Of a stretch of DNA of 5,880 nt, positions 1-5,880 are shown in pieces (position 1 is the first letter of the stretch; each line of letters opens with the position of its first letter). Source of the DNA: Fusobacteriaceae bacterium (GTDB taxonomy: Bacteria; Fusobacteriota; Fusobacteriia; Fusobacteriales; Fusobacteriaceae); contig DAOUPY010000112.1 of assembly GCA_030625925.1 (NCBI GenBank), positions 1 through 5,880 of the forward strand, given 5' to 3'. A program made the position numbers and the translations under genes. The notes beneath the pieces were generated by a model. It saw only the letters and a program-made list of their open reading frames with translations, was not told where the DNA came from and ran no database searches.

Positions 1-50
1 TGTGGGATTCTCACCCATCTTCCTTTTTAATTGAACTAATCAAACCTTAA
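1..50 (-). promoter_or_regulatory. Cobalamin (B12) riboswitch, 5' part only
   Basis: Read on the minus strand, this stretch runs AGGTTTGATTAGTTC, then AATTAAAAAGGAAGAT, then GGGTGAGAATCCCACA at the window edge. This follows the order of the conserved cobalamin riboswitch core: an AGGT element, an A-rich GGGAA element, then GGTGaaAATCC flanked by complementary bases (here GGG/CCC). The next conserved block, CCCGCnACTGT, would lie just past position 1 and cannot be seen. Such elements bind adenosyl- or other cobalamins and turn off genes for B12 uptake or synthesis, or for B12-replaceable enzymes. The controlled gene would be to the left, off the window. The GGAA element has one G fewer than the usual GGGAA. 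The call rests on motif recognition, not on a covariance-model search. Confidence 0.72.
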
Positions 51-96
51 ATTTTAATATTTAATTGTATTTATGTTTTGCTTATTTTACGTAAAG

Positions 97-125
97 ACTT
101 TATCACTTATCAGTAATAAAGTCAA
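97..125 (-). promoter_or_regulatory. Sigma-70-type promoter feeding the B12 riboswitch
   Basis: On the minus strand there is TTGACT (125-120), a 17-nt spacer, and TAAAGT (102-97) preceded by TGA, which makes an extended -10. The -35 matches the consensus at 5 of 6 positions and the -10 at 4 of 6. Initiation would be near position 90, giving a leader of about 40 nt before the riboswitch core begins near position 50. A 10-bp palindrome, TTTACGTAAA (86-95), covers the predicted start site and might be an operator. The placement directly ahead of the riboswitch supports both calls. Confidence 0.65.
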
Positions 126-136
126 TAACTTTTTCG

Positions 137-180
137 TAAATCACAGTAAATTAAAATTAATTTTAATTTACTGTGATTTA
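137..180. repeat. Perfect 44-bp palindrome
   Basis: The 22 bases at 137-158 are the exact reverse complement of the 22 bases at 159-180, with no central spacer. The outer ends read TAAATCACAG and CTGTGATTTA; the middle is A/T only. Transcribed from either strand it would fold into a hairpin of about 20 bp with an AATT loop. No run of T follows on either strand, so it is not a typical intrinsic terminator. It ends 11 bp upstream of the -35 box of the minus-strand promoter. It could be a protein-binding site for that promoter, a processing hairpin, or a mobile palindromic element. Confidence 0.85.
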
Positions 181-415
181 ACGCCTATTTATACCCTGAA
201 AACCTATGATTGTGAGACAATTTTTTTTCTTTATAACACGTTTTTTTCACTCTGACATGTTTTTCAAAATATCCTCTGAATCGTAATAGTACCAATGGAT
301 TTATGACGTTATAATTTGATAAATTTCAGTTATAAGGGTGTAATCACAAGGGGCGATTTTTAGGAGAGCTTAGGAGGAAAATGAGAGAGAATTTAATTAA
401 AAATGGATAATTGAA

Positions 416-482
416 AACCAAGAAAAAAAGATTTTTAATTTGTGTAATTCGTGAAAAAAATTCAAAGATTCCTGTAGTGTAA
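416..482 (+). repeat. Degenerate dispersed repeat, copy A
   Basis: This segment matches a second one downstream of rnhB. Both begin AACCAAG, continue with an A-rich run and GATTTTT, then a TTGTGT/CTGTGT block, and end in CCTGT. Copy A contains the 12-mer GTGTAATTCGTG (442-453), which is repeated exactly at 1513-1524. Compared with the copy at 1442-1490, copy A carries extra bases in its middle. The presence of related copies only in the two non-coding stretches suggests a decayed intergenic repeat family rather than a chance similarity. Confidence 0.6.
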
Positions 483-599
483 CTCTTCATCTCAGTTTCT
501 CAAAATTCTATGTTTACAGAGTATACTAATAGTTTTTTGGTGATGACCCATGCGGTTATTTTGTGCTAAATATTTTCATCTATGTAAATTGTTGATTTG

Positions 600-626
600 A
601 ATATTTTTTTTGTAAAAAAAAATATT
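600..626. repeat. A/T-only inverted repeat
   Basis: The bases at 600-611 (A then ATATTTTTTTT) pair perfectly with those at 615-626, with a three-base GTA loop. The stem is entirely A-T, so it would be weak as RNA but could matter as bent or easily melted DNA ahead of rnhB. In an AT-rich spacer part of this is expected by chance. Confidence 0.5.
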
Positions 627-727
627 TGAAAAAATGTTAAAATAACAATAAGAGAAAATTTAATAGAAAAAATCAAAAAAATTAAATATAAAATAACTGT
701 GGTTTTTCTATTGTTAGAGGAACCTTT

Positions 728-741: not shown

Positions 742-1356
742 TTGAATACCATGCTGGAATTTGATAAGGAATATGGAAATAGTATAATAGGGATAGATGA
801 AGCTGGACGTGGGCCTCTTGCAGGGCCTGTAGTAGCATCTGCCGTAAAGATAATAAACTATGTAGAAGAATTTGATATGATAGATGACTCGAAAAAATTA
901 ACCGAGAAAAAAAGGGAGTTTTTATTTGACCTAATCTTGGCTAACTGTGAAGTAGGAGTTGGAATAGCTAATGAAAAGGAGATAGACGAGATAAATATCT
1001 TGAATGCTACATTTCTTGCCATGAGAAGAGCGATAGAAGATTTAGAGGCAGAGGGAACAGAATTCGATCTTGCTTTAATTGACGGAAATCATAAGATTCG
1101 TGAGTATGACGATCCCCAGGAGTTTGTAATTAAAGGTGATGGAAAGAGTCTGGCTATTGCAGCTGCAAGTATCATAGCTAAGGTAACTAGGGACAGGATT
1201 ATGATTAAATATGGTGAGCTTTATCCTGAATACGGATTTGCAAAACATAAGGGGTACGGGACAAAACAGCACCGTGAAGCACTTCTTAGTCATGGAAAAA
1301 TAGATTGTCATAGAAATAGTTTTTTGACTAAAATTTTAGCTCCTACACTATTTTAG
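742..1356 (+). CDS. rnhB: Ribonuclease HII
   Basis: This 204-aa protein has the usual length of RNase HII, the cytoplasmic enzyme that cuts the RNA strand of RNA/DNA hybrids and nicks at single ribonucleotides misinserted in DNA. The signature GIDEAGRGPLAGPVV starts at residue 17 and supplies catalytic D19 and E20. The other two metal-binding acids are D114 (ALIDGNHK) and D151 (AKVTRDRI). The motifs DSKKLTEKKR (49-58), KGDGKSLAIAAASIIAK (131-147) and YGFAKHKGYGTKQH near the C-terminus are all typical. All four catalytic acids are present, so the enzyme should be active. The TTG start is chosen because of the strong Shine-Dalgarno 7 nt upstream; an ATG three codons further in is the fallback. 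It stands alone, with a 367-nt spacer holding a terminator before the next gene. Confidence 0.97.
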   Translation: MNTMLEFDKEYGNSIIGIDEAGRGPLAGPVVASAVKIINYVEEFDMIDDSKKLTEKKREFLFDLILANCEVGVGIANEKEIDEINILNATFLAMRRAIEDLEAEGTEFDLALIDGNHKIREYDDPQEFVIKGDGKSLAIAAASIIAKVTRDRIMIKYGELYPEYGFAKHKGYGTKQHREALLSHGKIDCHRNSFLTKILAPTLF

Positions 1357-1723: not shown

Positions 1724-1843
1724 ATGATCATGATAATATTACAGAGTATAGCGATAACTGCTTTATTATGTGTAAGTTATATATGCATGTGTGCATTGAA
1801 TGAAAAAAAAGTTGAGATGGAAAAGGAAGAAAAAGATGGATAA
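1724..1843 (+). CDS. Small single-span membrane protein, 39 aa
   Basis: I do not recognise a family. The predicted product starts MIMIILQSIAITALLCVSYI, a hydrophobic stretch of about 25 residues that fits one membrane span. It ends in a charged tail of about 14 residues that is rich in Glu and Lys (NEKKVEMEKEEKDG). Cysteines occur at 16, 21 and 23. Three things support a real gene: a G6 ribosome-binding site at good spacing, a clean split into hydrophobic and charged halves, and a stop codon lying within the start of yraN (ATGGATAA, 8-nt overlap), as in translationally coupled gene pairs. It may anchor or modulate something at the membrane, or serve mainly as a translated leader for yraN. It could still be a chance frame, because AT-rich DNA readily encodes hydrophobic stretches. 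Confidence 0.55.
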   Translation: MIMIILQSIAITALLCVSYICMCALNEKKVEMEKEEKDG

Positions 1844-2195
1844 TAGAGCTGTCGGAACAAAATATGAAGGGATAGCCATGGAATATCTAGCTGAAAAAGG
1901 ATATTCTGAATTGGGGAGAAATTATTATTCCAGGTATGGAGAATTAGATCTCATATGCAGGGATGAAAAAAAAGGCGATATAGTTTTTGTAGAGGTGAAG
2001 TATAGAAAAAGTATGGAATACGGGAATGGACTGGAATCCATTACCAGATCTAAGCAGAGGAAGTTAGTAAAGACCGCTGCAGTTTATTTGAAAGACAAAA
2101 AAATAGAGGATATTCCCTATAGATTCGATATAATATCAATATTAGGAAATGAAATAGAGCATATTGAAAATGCGATTTGGGGGGATTGTCTATGA
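1836..2195 (+). CDS. yraN: YraN family (UPF0102) endonuclease-like protein
   Basis: The protein is 119 aa, typical of YraN/UPF0102, a family with a PD-(D/E)XK nuclease-type fold related to Holliday junction resolvases; its cellular role is not settled. Visible motifs are GTKYEGIAMEYL (7-18, with E11), YGELDLI (34-40, with D38) and IVFVEVKYR (49-57, with E53 and K55). Together these form the presumed metal-binding active site, and all are intact. A longer frame opens at an ATG at 1800, adding the very basic leader MKKKLRWKRKKK. I prefer 1836 because AGGAAG (1824-1829) lies 6 nt ahead of it, the length fits the family, and the 1800 start has no ribosome-binding site. It overlaps the stop of the 39-aa gene upstream and shares ATGA with the next gene. 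Confidence 0.92.
   Translation: MDNRAVGTKYEGIAMEYLAEKGYSELGRNYYSRYGELDLICRDEKKGDIVFVEVKYRKSMEYGNGLESITRSKQRKLVKTAAVYLKDKKIEDIPYRFDIISILGNEIEHIENAIWGDCL
2179..2184 (+). promoter_or_regulatory. GGGGGG ribosome-binding site that decides the zinc-ribbon start
   Basis: Six G lie inside the end of yraN, 7 nt ahead of the ATG at 2192. This favours ATG 2192 over an in-frame TTG at 2177, which would itself sit on top of the G-run. Confidence 0.6.
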
Positions 2196-2383
2196 ATTTT
2201 AGATGTTTAAAGTGCGAGGGAGAAGATTATACAGTAAAGACTACATTTATGGCAGAAAAAACACCAGGGTTGAGATTGGAATTAGGGACATATTATCTAA
2301 AAATATGTTCAAACTGCGGGTACACAGAGATGTATTCAGCCAAGATACTGGATAAAGATGAAGAGCCTAAACCACAGCATTAG
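2192..2383 (+). CDS. Small zinc-ribbon protein, 63 aa
   Basis: The protein holds two CxxC knuckles: C5/C8 (RCLKCEG) and C39/C42 (ICSNCGY), about 30 residues apart. This is the layout of a single zinc ribbon that binds one structural zinc. The segment between them (KTTFMAEKTPGLRLELGTYY) and the Y-T-E-M-Y after the second knuckle resemble short bacterial proteins annotated as nucleic-acid-binding zinc-ribbon proteins. The actual ligand is unknown. The C-terminus is acidic and short. The gene starts within the yraN stop (ATGA) and its last 26 nt overlap comF, so it is embedded in the operon and probably translated by coupling. Confidence 0.85.
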   Translation: MNFRCLKCEGEDYTVKTTFMAEKTPGLRLELGTYYLKICSNCGYTEMYSAKILDKDEEPKPQH

Positions 2384-3011
2384 ACAGATATTTTTTAAGA
2401 ATAACTGTATTCTTTGCCCTGAAAAAGCCAATGACAACCTTCATTATATGTGTTATAATTGCCATAAAAGTCTAAGGGATACAGGGGATTTGAAAAAGTT
2501 CAATGATATCTATTACCTTTGGAATTATGATAAGAAATTAAAAAAAATAATAGAGGAATATAAGTTTAAAAATAAACTTTATATAGGAGAACTATTGTTT
2601 GGCTTGATAGGAGAAGAGCTGGATAAATTGATAAAAAAAGAGGGAATAGGAGGTATAATCCCAATACCTGTAAGTCATAAAAGACTCATGGAAAGAGGAT
2701 TTAACCAAGTGGAAGAACTCCTAAAATTTGGTGGATATTCCTATATAAAAACTAACAGGATCAAGGAAACAAAACATATGTATGAACTCCTAAATTCGGA
2801 GGCAAGAAGAAAAAATATAAGATCAGCATTTAAAATAGAGGGATTAAAAGGGTTAAAAAAAGTTTTAATAATTGACGATATAATAACGACAGGTTCAACC
2901 ATGAAGGAATTTATAACTGAGATTAAAAATAATAATGATACTATACAAATAGTGGTATTTACCTTGGCTTTATCTAAAACTGCTAAAAAAATAAATTTAA
3001 AAATGAGGTAA
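2358..3011 (+). CDS. comF: ComF family phosphoribosyltransferase-like protein
   Basis: The 217-aa protein has the ComF/GntX layout. An N-terminal four-Cys zinc finger (C17, C20, C32, C35) is followed by a type I phosphoribosyltransferase domain. IPIPVSHKRLMERGFNQ (101-117) is the family motif. VLIIDDIITTGSTM (169-182) is the PRPP-binding loop with D173, D174 and TTGST. In Bacillus and Haemophilus ComF proteins are needed for DNA uptake by transformation, working with the ComFA helicase at the inner face of the membrane; many non-competent bacteria keep the gene, where its role is unclear. The ATG at 2358 is the only ATG before the zinc finger and lies 26 nt inside the previous gene, with only a weak GGAT ahead of it, so translation probably depends on coupling. 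Confidence 0.93.
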   Translation: MKSLNHSIRQIFFKNNCILCPEKANDNLHYMCYNCHKSLRDTGDLKKFNDIYYLWNYDKKLKKIIEEYKFKNKLYIGELLFGLIGEELDKLIKKEGIGGIIPIPVSHKRLMERGFNQVEELLKFGGYSYIKTNRIKETKHMYELLNSEARRKNIRSAFKIEGLKGLKKVLIIDDIITTGSTMKEFITEIKNNNDTIQIVVFTLALSKTAKKINLKMR

Positions 3012-3016
3012 ATAGA

Positions 3017-3628
3017 ATGAAAATTATATTAGACAATAGAGAGATAACCATGAATGATGTAGATGATAAGAGCTTTTCCTGGGTATTAGAGGAGGTAACA
3101 GATCTTTTAGAGAGAGATGGAAGAATGTTATTTGATGTATATATCGATGGAAAAGGGATGGATTACTATGAATACTTCAATAAAGAGCAGATAGGAGTAG
3201 TGGAATTTATCAGTAAATCTCCAAAGGTAATCATACTTGAATCTTTAGGCGGGATGAGAGATTTTATCTCAAAGTATTTTGACGCCCTTATAGCCATAGC
3301 CAGTAGTTTTAATAGTAATAGAACCACAGATGCTGTAGAGATCCTTTTAGAGGTAGAAAATGGATTGGAATGGGTATGTAATGTTTTGGCTTCTATAAAG
3401 GAAAATACAGCTATTGATTTTAAATATCCTGAATTTGATATGATGTTCTTGGAGTATAGAACCAGCTTGGAAAAGGTGCAGGAATCTATAGAAAATGGTG
3501 ACTATATTGGTGGTTTAACCGTTCTAGAGGTAGAGATGAGCGGTGAGCTGATATTTTTGCAGGAAAACCTGGATACCTACATGGAAGATATTGTAGATGA
3601 AGAGATAAATGAATATAAGTATAATTAA
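3017..3628 (+). CDS. Hypothetical protein, 203 aa, acidic
   Basis: I do not recognise this protein. It starts 5 nt after the comF stop, with GAGGT (3005-3009) 7 nt ahead of the ATG, so it is the last gene of the operon. It has no signal peptide, no clear membrane span and only one cysteine, and it is strongly acidic, ending DEEINEYKYN. The first 75 or so residues alternate short strand-like segments (MKIILDNREI, RMLFDVYIDGK, KVIILESL) with a helix. The rest (about 80-195) looks mostly helical, with heptad-like stretches such as SLEKVQESIENGDYIGG. It is probably a soluble cytoplasmic protein. Its place behind comF says little about function, since the whole cluster is mixed. Confidence 0.85.
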   Translation: MKIILDNREITMNDVDDKSFSWVLEEVTDLLERDGRMLFDVYIDGKGMDYYEYFNKEQIGVVEFISKSPKVIILESLGGMRDFISKYFDALIAIASSFNSNRTTDAVEILLEVENGLEWVCNVLASIKENTAIDFKYPEFDMMFLEYRTSLEKVQESIENGDYIGGLTVLEVEMSGELIFLQENLDTYMEDIVDEEINEYKYN

Positions 3629-3654
3629 GAGAGTGGGAAACCACTCTTAATTTA
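3625..3654 (+). terminator. Hairpin with GAAA tetraloop at the end of the operon
   Basis: GAGTGG (3631-3636) pairs with CCACTC (3641-3646) around a GAAA loop, and flanking TTAA bases can extend the stem past a two-base bulge. The tail TTAATTTACG is T-rich but lacks a real T-run. It lies immediately at the stop codon of the 203-aa gene and 33 nt before the lipoprotein start. It is probably a weak or partial terminator, or an mRNA-stabilising hairpin. No promoter can be made out between it and the next gene, so some read-through is likely. Confidence 0.5.
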
Positions 3655-3678: not shown

Positions 3679-5880
3679 ATGAAGAAATGGTTGATTATCA
3701 TGGGAGTGACTCTGCTTATGGGGTGCTCAAACAGTGAAATATTGAAGATAAAGGAGAATACTCCAATCCCTGTTGTTACAAAAAAAGGAGACAGCTATGT
3801 ATTTTTAGACGATTTAGAACATAGATCTACAACGAAGTACCTGATATATGACGAAGATAAAAAGCAACTGAAAGTATTAATCAAAGTACGGAAAAATGAT
3901 ATAGAAAAAATAAATTTAATATTGGATGGAGAAAAAAAAGAGATGCAGTCTCTAGGGTTTCTTAGAGGAAACGAATTTTTTTCAGTAGATATAAAGGAAA
4001 CAACCGAGAAAAATGTAAATTATTATTTTGAGATAATAGATGGTAAATTTAAATATTTTTACGGGAAAAAATCATCATATTATTCAGAAGATGTATCTGC
4101 ATTTACATATATTGTAGAAGATAAACAAAGGGAACTTCCCAGCTGGGCTGAAGGGATGACCTGGTATTCTATCTATGTGGACAGTTTTCGAGATGGAGAT
4201 GAAAAAAATAGCCCTATCTACTCAGAGTTTGGGCCTGAATATTATTTTAGACCTAGTGGAAGGCTGAATGATGGGACTCTAAAGTCGGAATTGATTTCGC
4301 CGGAAAAGTGGCAAAAAAAGGGAACCCTCCAGGGATTTGAAGTGACAGATTGGGGCGATGACTGGAATACTCCTCCATATTCAGAGATTGAAGCTAAAAA
4401 TAGATATTTTTCTTATGCAGTAAAAAATACCAGAAGGTATGGCGGAGACCTGCAGGGAATAATGGATAAATTGGATTATCTCAAAGGGTTAGGCGTTGAG
4501 GGAGTAAAACTATCCCCTGTATATTATTCAAATTCAAGCCATAAATTAGATACCATAGATTACGGTCATATTTCCCCTGATTATGCTTTAACAGATAAGG
4601 ATTCATATAGGGAGCTAGAGGGTGGTCTAGGGAGTGATATATGGACTAACTCAGATAGACTTTTTCAAAAATTAGTGGATGAGATCCACAAAAAAAAAAT
4701 GAGGGTGGTCTTGGATATTAATTTTTCATATGTATCATCGGAATTTTTTGCATATAAGGATCTATTAAAAAATGGAGATAATTCAAAATATAAAAATTGG
4801 TTTATCCTCAATGAAGATCAGTTGTCGAAGGAACCAAAAAAAGAAACCAAAAAAATACTTTTAAATCTAGAGGATGAATTCCTGCAGGATTATTTGATCG
4901 GAGCAACGACAAAATGGGTAAGGGGTTATGAAAATAAGGGAATAGATGGATATTATGTAAAAAATGACCTGTCTAATAAGGCGTTTTTAACTAGGTGGAA
5001 AAAAGCACTTTTAGAGATGAACGGTGAATTTATCTTAGTTGGAGAATCTACAGAGGAAAATGAAAACAATTTAGGAAAAGATGGCTTTGATATCATAGGT
5101 TCCTATGAATTAGGAGCTTGGATGCAGGGCTTACTTGAAAATTCGAACAGAAATACTATAGAGACAGTAAAGGGTGGGATGAAAATTTATAGTATTAAAA
5201 CTCCTAGATGGAATTTTATAGAATCCTATGATACCGATAGATTTTATTCTAGTCTAATAAATCCAAATAGGGAATTTGACAGGTTAAATAATTACGGCAG
5301 AGATGATTATATAAATATCAGACCTGATTTGATCGACAAAGATGCTATAAAAAAATTAAAATTAGCTGCTTTAATCCACCTAACCATAGATGGGAGTCCG
5401 GTTATATACTATGGTAATGAAAAAGCAATGTGGGGTGCAGATGCTCCTGACAGCAGAAAACCAATGATTTGGGAAGATGTGAAGTTTGAAAATGAAACGG
5501 ACAGTCTGAAAAAATACAGTAAAAATAGAGCTGAAATAGCTGAAATATTTAAAACAGACCTGATAAAAGATGAAATATCTTATAGTGTGACAGCAGGTAA
5601 AACTTTGGAAGATTGGTATAAGAAAATTTCTGAATTTAGAAACTTTGATATGGAACTAATGAAAAGTGGGGACCTGGAGATACTGGATCTGGATAGAGAT
5701 AAATATTTGGAAGATGGACGTTTAGAGAAGACACCTGAGACTGATGTGTTTTCCTACAAGAGGGAATATAAGGGCAGAAGTGCAATTATAGTAATAAATA
5801 GATCTAATCTAAAGAAGACGGTGGAACTGCCGATACAAGGGAAAAAAGGTTATACTGATTATTATTCTGGTAAAAGACAT
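3679..5880 (+). CDS. GH13 alpha-amylase-like lipoprotein with degenerate active site (3' end off window)
   Basis: The frame is open for 734 codons to the window edge; AAAGGAG lies 7 nt ahead of the ATG. Residues 1-16 form a lipoprotein signal with lipobox LMGC (C16); Ser at +2 suits outer-membrane sorting in a diderm. About 25-150 is a beta-sandwich like the N-terminal domain of neopullulanases and cyclomaltodextrinases. The barrel then runs WYSIYVDSFRDGD (162-174), GDLQGIMDKLDYLK (from 256), HKLDTIDY (288-295), GSPVIYYGNE (572-581) and DSRKPMIW (591-598), all close to GH13. The start of the C-terminal beta domain follows. The catalytic motifs are altered: region I reads DINFSY (346-351) for DxxxNH; region II reads GIDGYYVK (421-428), so the Arg is Tyr426 and the nucleophile Asp is Lys428; region IV reads SYD (516-518) for HD. 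E456 (GES) and D518 remain. Normal GH13 hydrolysis is unlikely. I infer a binding or structural role. Confidence 0.93.
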   Translation, partial: MKKWLIIMGVTLLMGCSNSEILKIKENTPIPVVTKKGDSYVFLDDLEHRSTTKYLIYDEDKKQLKVLIKVRKNDIEKINLILDGEKKEMQSLGFLRGNEFFSVDIKETTEKNVNYYFEIIDGKFKYFYGKKSSYYSEDVSAFTYIVEDKQRELPSWAEGMTWYSIYVDSFRDGDEKNSPIYSEFGPEYYFRPSGRLNDGTLKSELISPEKWQKKGTLQGFEVTDWGDDWNTPPYSEIEAKNRYFSYAVKNTRRYGGDLQGIMDKLDYLKGLGVEGVKLSPVYYSNSSHKLDTIDYGHISPDYALTDKDSYRELEGGLGSDIWTNSDRLFQKLVDEIHKKKMRVVLDINFSYVSSEFFAYKDLLKNGDNSKYKNWFILNEDQLSKEPKKETKKILLNLEDEFLQDYLIGATTKWVRGYENKGIDGYYVKNDLSNKAFLTRWKKALLEMNGEFILVGESTEENENNLGKDGFDIIGSYELGAWMQGLLENSNRNTIETVKGGMKIYSIKTPRWNFIESYDTDRFYSSLINPNREFDRLNNYGRDDYINIRPDLIDKDAIKKLKLAALIHLTIDGSPVIYYGNEKAMWGADAPDSRKPMIWEDVKFENETDSLKKYSKNRAEIAEIFKTDLIKDEISYSVTAGKTLEDWYKKISEFRNFDMELMKSGDLEILDLDRDKYLEDGRLEKTPETDVFSYKREYKGRSAIIVINRSNLKKTVELPIQGKKGYTDYYSGKRH

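Follow-up and report, generated by a model that had tools for sequence, protein, structure and literature searches.

The window analysed here, meaning the whole stretch of 5,880 nucleotides, carries at positions 3679..5880 of its + strand a gene for a degenerate GH13 protein of the neopullulanase type. We propose, with a probability of about 0.6, that its product is a predicted envelope lipoprotein that lacks five of the seven catalytic and subsite -1 residues, is likely non-hydrolytic on alpha-glucans, and acts as a non-catalytic, scaffold-like docking partner. The loss of five of these seven residues makes the hydrolysis of alpha-glucans by this protein improbable, and, since relatives in some of the Fusobacteria in which at least three of them are lost still carry the gene, a non-cutting job, for example docking a partner protein or binding a sugar chain, is likely. 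An old, selected pseudo-amylase is the best reading of the gene, and the role that we infer for it is non-catalytic.

The GH13-like protein and its active-site positions

The window is an entire contig (C121) of exactly 5880 bases, and the GH13-like reading frame runs off its end, which cuts the 3' end of the gene after 734 codons that contain no internal stop. A 98% identical relative, P0001, has 760 aa and ends in a Malt_amylase_C domain (27.4 bits, cut-off 27); thus, approximately 26 C-terminal residues are missing from the window protein, and the open frame over 734 codons reported in the preliminary description of this DNA is borne out with that addition. The closest named relatives are the Psychrilyobacter proteins P0004, P0005, and P0007 (81-84% identity). 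The beginning of the gene (3679..3726; all features described below are on the + strand) encodes a signal sequence with the lipobox MGC at residues 14-16 and a predicted lipidated Cys16, and the hydrophobic N terminus with MGC is kept across the Psychrilyobacter group, which comprises the window protein and P0001-P0019 (52-98% identity). The signal peptide noted previously is therefore retained, whereas the designation as a secreted protein is corrected to a predicted lipoprotein, a call made from the sequence and from a crude check of four relatives for hydrophobicity and a lipobox. The Leptotrichiaceae N termini inspected by eye show no clear lipobox, thus envelope anchoring is not general.

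The protein shares with the neopullulanase/maltogenic amylase/cyclomaltodextrinase group (TVA II, 1j0h) a predicted N-terminal Ig-like domain and a predicted GH13 fold; however, it differs from these enzymes in the replacement of five of seven residues, in extra insertions, and in the predicted lipoprotein signal. The Ig-like domain, which is characteristic of neopullulanase-type enzymes, covers residues ~41-150 (3799..4128) according to the structural model and a Pfam match (PF02903, residues 47-138, E 1.9e-6), and the GH13 domain is matched by PF00128 (E 1e-27). The first insertion (residues ~172-250, 4192..4428), delineated by alignment, is present in the active-looking Haliovirga abyssi protein L046, whereas the four canonical outgroup rows displayed lack it or have a reduced version. 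The second insertion (residues ~528-555, NPNREFDRLN..., 5260..5343), likewise found by alignment, also occurs in L046 and has a mean pairwise identity of 0.51 within the degenerate clade. The AlphaFold2 model built from 53 sequences (mean pLDDT 87.6, pTM 0.88), used instead of an earlier 30-sequence model that was weak at the insertions (mean pLDDT 73.0), gives a GH13 fold match with a predicted (beta/alpha)8 barrel. In this model, strand 424-427 stops right before K428, and strand 510-513 immediately precedes Y517 and D518.

Alignment of the family profile A2 with a profile built from 14 canonical proteins of the neopullulanase type by hhalign (Prob 100, E 4e-81), together with the family rows, assigned all seven positions exactly as the preliminary description had paired them, and every residue named there was found in its place. 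The subsite -1 Tyr is replaced by L290 (4546..4548), the region I His by Y351 (4729..4731), the region II Arg by Y426 (4954..4956), the nucleophile Asp by K428 (4960..4962), and the region IV His by Y517 (5227..5229), whereas the acid/base Glu (E456, 5044..5046) and the transition-state Asp (D518, 5230..5232) are retained. The protein thus keeps two of the seven residues of a complete -1 subsite (Tyr, His, Arg, Asp, Glu, His, Asp), and of the catalytic Asp, Glu, and Asp that GH13 enzymes carry on strands 4, 5, and 7, it has the Glu and the second Asp, with K428 at the place of the nucleophile. In addition, the first Asp of region IV, which was absent from the original list of replacements, is E515.

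This pattern is highly constant within the Psychrilyobacter group, where L290, Y351, K428, E456, Y517, and D518 occur in all 20 proteins. Of the suggested conserved signature K428/Y426/Y351/Y517, only position 426 varies, with Tyr in 12 proteins and Phe in the other 8. Among the 19 full-length rows (the truncated P0010, 645 aa, was excluded), six of the seven positions are invariant against 205 of 734 columns overall, which corresponds to binomial probabilities of 0.0025 with all columns, 0.011 with domain A, and 0.022 with strand-end columns as the reference. The residue right after K428 is Asn429 in 20/20 proteins, of which 14 carry Asp and 6 carry Asn at residue 430. We examined whether D430 or another Asp could take the nucleophile place; D430 lies two residues past K428 in the profile alignment and alternates with Asn, and was therefore ruled out as the nucleophile.

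The survival of E456 and D518, which are invariant in the Psychrilyobacter group (of the 74 degenerate rows of the wider family, 52 keep the Glu and 62 keep the second Asp), leaves room for residual or altered chemistry, and the protein could still be an enzyme, either with such chemistry or with an aberrant triad. A published exception to the general rule that the Asp nucleophile is required in every GH13 hydrolase is the GH13_45 amylase BmaN1, which is active with Lys at the nucleophile place followed by Asp, and has His instead of the transition-state Asp (PMC5347038). The Lys is common to both proteins; however, the Asp after the Lys, which may be the nucleophile of BmaN1, is conserved in GH13_45 and has no counterpart here, where Asn429 follows K428 and residue 430 is not constant, while the transition-state Asp is retained. 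Moreover, the window protein lacks the -1 Tyr, both His, and the Arg, and the relatives P0020-P0029 have lost the Glu as well. We thus regard an enzymatic function as unlikely.

Distribution and origin of the degenerate family

We aligned 112 GH13-like rows, a set that includes near-duplicates because some loci repeat P rows; 38 of them keep all seven residues, 74 keep zero to four, and none keeps five or six. The 74 degenerate rows represent 71 distinct sequences, many of them close kin, with the members from genomes G046 and G085 being partial; three GH13 hits, L002 (duplicate of L066) and L005 and L068 (a single weak hit, resembling CBM48 pullulanases), were left out before alignment. The region I His is retained in none of the 74 degenerate rows, the region IV His in one, the nucleophile Asp in four (P0024, P0246, L057, and P0274), the Tyr in 31, and the Arg in 36. 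The nucleophile is replaced by Lys in 28 rows, by Val in 26, by Glu in 10, and by other residues in the remaining ones. The replacements follow lineage. For instance, nine Leptotrichiaceae rows have Val (eight) or Ser (one) at the nucleophile place and keep the Tyr in nine, the Arg in seven, the Glu in seven, and the second Asp in eight cases, whereas eight Propionigenium-type rows have lost the Glu, keep the Arg in all eight, and the second Asp in six; P0026 and P0028 keep none of the seven residues. Since the replacements differ between genera, there is no single rebuilt pocket common to the clade. Random decay of homologues at these sites, which had been named as an argument against a selected new function, is thus applicable across the order, where the residues differ between genera, but not within the genus.

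Within the order, a degenerate member was read in at least 37 of the 96 genomes, including the eight genomes of the own genus, G053, G045, G046 (in pieces), G039, G040, G062, and 23 genomes of the family f4, presumably the Leptotrichiaceae. Altogether, 65 of the 96 genomes have a match, those beyond the 37 being read only in part, and no match at E 1e-10 was found in the other 31, all of which belong to the own family. In the tree (LG+C20) of 47 chosen rows, the 28 sampled degenerate rows form one clade with support 100/100, and in a second LG+C20 tree of 44 chosen rows, to which P0245-P0247 were added, 23 degenerate rows form one clade with support 100/99. We took the canonical outgroup rows from search lists, and both trees have several long branches, compositional differences among rows, and an unresolved deep order inside the degenerate clade. 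The members of the clade come from two or more families within the order. Outside of it are proteins with all seven residues, namely L046 and P0241-P0244, a group of canonical proteins of 910-1023 aa encoded by G061, G062, and genomes of f4, and other canonical proteins, mostly of other phyla. The nearest intact sisters in the second tree are L046 from Haliovirga abyssi and P0241-P0244, while P0245 and P0246, which keep four and three of the seven residues, respectively, occupy the base of the degenerate clade and have the appearance of intermediates.

L046 resembles the window protein in its lipobox-like N terminus and in both insertions; in contrast, it has, as do P0241-P0244, all seven canonical residues. 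As L046 has the same two insertions, the degenerate family likely descends from a Haliovirga-like enzyme, and its ancestor would have been an active secreted alpha-glucan enzyme resembling that of H. abyssi. The region I His was probably lost early, since it is absent in 74/74 degenerate rows, whereas there is at least one row that retains each of the remaining six residues.

Such an origin from an alpha-glucan enzyme also speaks for the main rival explanation, in which the protein captures alpha-glucans at the surface or in the periplasm for uptake; the non-catalytic glucan-binding lipoproteins of Sus systems offer a comparison. R593, the equivalent of which we take to be an alpha-glucan contact in TVA II, is invariant in 19/19 rows of the Psychrilyobacter group. 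However, subsite -1 is filled by non-canonical residues that differ among genera, and the equivalent of TVA II Asp465, a residue to which we presume a role in that enzyme, is Ala, Ser, Thr, or Val. Together with the evidence from gene neighborhoods given below, this leaves glucan capture possible, at odds clearly lower than those of a docking role.

Selection and gene neighborhood

The GH13-like gene is present without an internal stop in 8/8 genomes of the genus, and its NG86 dN/dS ratio has a mean of 0.14 over all 28 genome pairs, with dS above 1.5 in some pairs, where the method is rough. Seven neighbor genes have ratios of 0.054-0.108 (15 to 27 usable pairs each), all below that of the GH13-like gene, which is thus under purifying selection that is somewhat weaker than that on its neighbors. 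At the codon level, Y351, K428, E456, and D518 show no variation at all in the eight genomes, whereas the codons of L290 and Y517 have synonymous-only changes; therefore, constancy of the amino acid against synonymous change is observed only for the latter two. The source assembly is fragmented (576 contigs, completeness 81.75), which would be compatible with a decaying pseudogene or an assembly artefact, but the intact frames across the genus, the dN/dS ratio, and the synonymous-only changes at L290 and Y517 make this explanation hardly credible. The preliminary description held the gene to be probably selected and proposed comparing synonymous with non-synonymous changes; that comparison, the homologue pattern, and the conserved gene order support this view.

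In its chromosomal setting, the GH13-like gene stands beside housekeeping genes. The window contains rnhB (ribonuclease HII, 742..1356), a yraN-type gene (UPF0102, 1800..2195), a phosphoribosyltransferase gene that we take to be comF (2358..3011), all three identified by Pfam and conserved in synteny, and, immediately upstream, a gene for a 203-aa protein (3017..3628) without a Pfam or NCBIfam match. The order rluD-rnhB-yraN-comF-(203 aa)-gene-tpiA-gpmI is found in six of seven Psychrilyobacter loci, interrupted by an additional frame in one of the six, and in Propionigenium maris, while the contig of the seventh locus (L044) ends at the GH13-like gene; the names rluD, comF, tpiA, gpmI, and FliD (below) were read from sequence by eye and not from a scan. 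The direct neighbors in the Psychrilyobacter loci are accordingly the 203-aa gene and the tpiA-like gene, and no transporter is directly beside the GH13-like gene in the loci compared. In Leptotrichiaceae, comF is directly 5' of the GH13-like gene in 9/9 loci compared. A homologue of the 203-aa gene is located just upstream of the GH13-like gene in 11 of 30 loci, with one gene between them in two of these. In G039, G040, and G045, this homologue follows a 696-705-aa protein that resembles the flagellar cap protein FliD (one inspected), and the 203-aa protein may have a flagellar link.

Several further observations concern the window and its genome. A hairpin with a 7-bp stem and a GAAA loop (AGAGTGG GAAA CCACTCT, 3630-3647) separates the 203-aa and the GH13-like genes; it is kept with a 6-8-bp stem in 7/7 Psychrilyobacter loci, and a similar hairpin, but with a different loop, occurs in Propionigenium. 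A pattern scan finds it terminator-like on the - strand only, and it may be a terminator or attenuator. The first ~675 bases of the window (1-675) do not align to any of the seven Psychrilyobacter loci, in which rluD would be expected ahead of rnhB, except for 48 bases that match elsewhere in L039; they contain no long + strand frame and may reflect a rearrangement, a repeat, or an assembly break. Rfam and tRNA scans of the window found nothing. The genome also encodes a CBM48 pullulanase-like GH13 protein (L068:2050-4125) and a 628-aa GH13 frame (L067), which, to judge by size and gene order, we guess to be the branching enzyme of a glycogen operon.

The gene context bears on glucan capture in both directions. 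A gene for Glucodextran_C, a predicted glucan-binding module, directly precedes the GH13-like gene in G039, G040, G061, and G062 (the G061 and G039 proteins were Pfam-scanned), and three of these four loci have a degenerate GH13-like gene. Glucan capture is most plausible where this neighbor persists. However, Glucodextran_C is found in 4 of 96 genomes of the order and in 0/8 genomes of the genus, thus it was rejected as a partner for Psychrilyobacter. The location among housekeeping genes also argues against glucan capture, as does the finding that four near-complete Psychrilyobacter genomes (G054, G055, G057, and G059) encode, among the PF00128-detected GH13 proteins in their assembled parts, no other one with a clear export signal. 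The export test is crude, since the frames of L180, L182, and L183 start with an extra stretch that was taken to reflect an upstream start codon.

The same result weakens a partnership with an active secreted GH13 enzyme, one form of the previously suggested partnership with another enzyme. Non-catalytic GH13 paralogues of this kind do exist: plant ISA2, a conserved paralogue without a functional catalytic site, is bound by ISA1 (PMC12510319). The window protein resembles ISA2 in being a likely non-catalytic GH13 protein, but differs in that no GH13 partner with a clear export signal was seen in the four genomes by the crude test, and an arrangement of the ISA1/ISA2 type is very improbable here.

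Proposed docking role and relation to other non-enzymatic GH13 proteins

Regional conservation was compared as mean pairwise identity among 26 chosen degenerate and 14 canonical rows. The values are equal for residues 251-303 (0.61 vs 0.61) and 556-602 (0.55 vs 0.55), whereas the degenerate rows are less conserved at 341-396 (0.35 vs 0.46), 397-460 (0.35 vs 0.48), and 461-527 (0.30 vs 0.42), and domain B is also less conserved in the degenerate clade than in the active enzymes. The beta1 stretch (151-171, 0.47 vs 0.60) and the N domain (0.34 vs 0.34) were dropped as parts of a conserved face because their identities do not bear them out. We propose that the docking face would consist of the beta2-containing stretch 251-303, the beta8-containing stretch 556-602, and the second insertion, and that the stretches with beta3 to beta7 would have drifted. 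Conservation of beta2, beta8, and the second insertion, combined with the loss of the -1 site, would favor a docking or scaffold role over catalysis; retention of beta2 and beta8 alone does not mark a docking face, since these motifs are also fold-defining in GH13.

The heavy chains 4F2hc and rBAT are known non-enzymatic GH13 members; 4F2hc lacks the catalytic triad and is reported to show no glucosidase activity and no binding of glycans (PMC8537225). However, these are animal membrane proteins bound to SLC7 transporters, whereas the window protein is a bacterial predicted lipoprotein. A more far-reaching version of the docking proposal, which we put forward as doubtful, would make it a bacterial counterpart of 4F2hc, in which catalysis was lost near the base of the clade, the protein became a structural subunit of the envelope, the pocket was rebuilt genus by genus, and the beta2-beta8 side with the insertions docks onto a conserved partner machine. 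The GH13 family is described as including non-enzymatic members and some GH13_48 proteins without catalytic residues (PMC11239784). We recognized no described fusobacterial dead GH13 among the matches listed and the open-licence literature, and the passages considered from two papers on starch and Psychrilyobacter (PMC10580919, PMC11129491) name no test of the window protein.

The pseudo-GH13 family of Fusobacteria would be a new, bacterial addition beside the known non-enzymatic GH13 proteins. The dead GH13 proteins that surface in the literature searched are heavy chains of animal transporters, one isoamylase subunit of plants, and some GH13_48 sequences that are untested. Because related bacteria contain intact sisters as well as partial intermediates and nearly stripped members, the family would let the path from an amylase to a pseudoenzyme be followed and the gained function be found, and the GH13 counts in CAZyme surveys of Fusobacteria, including Leptotrichia, would then include likely non-enzymes.
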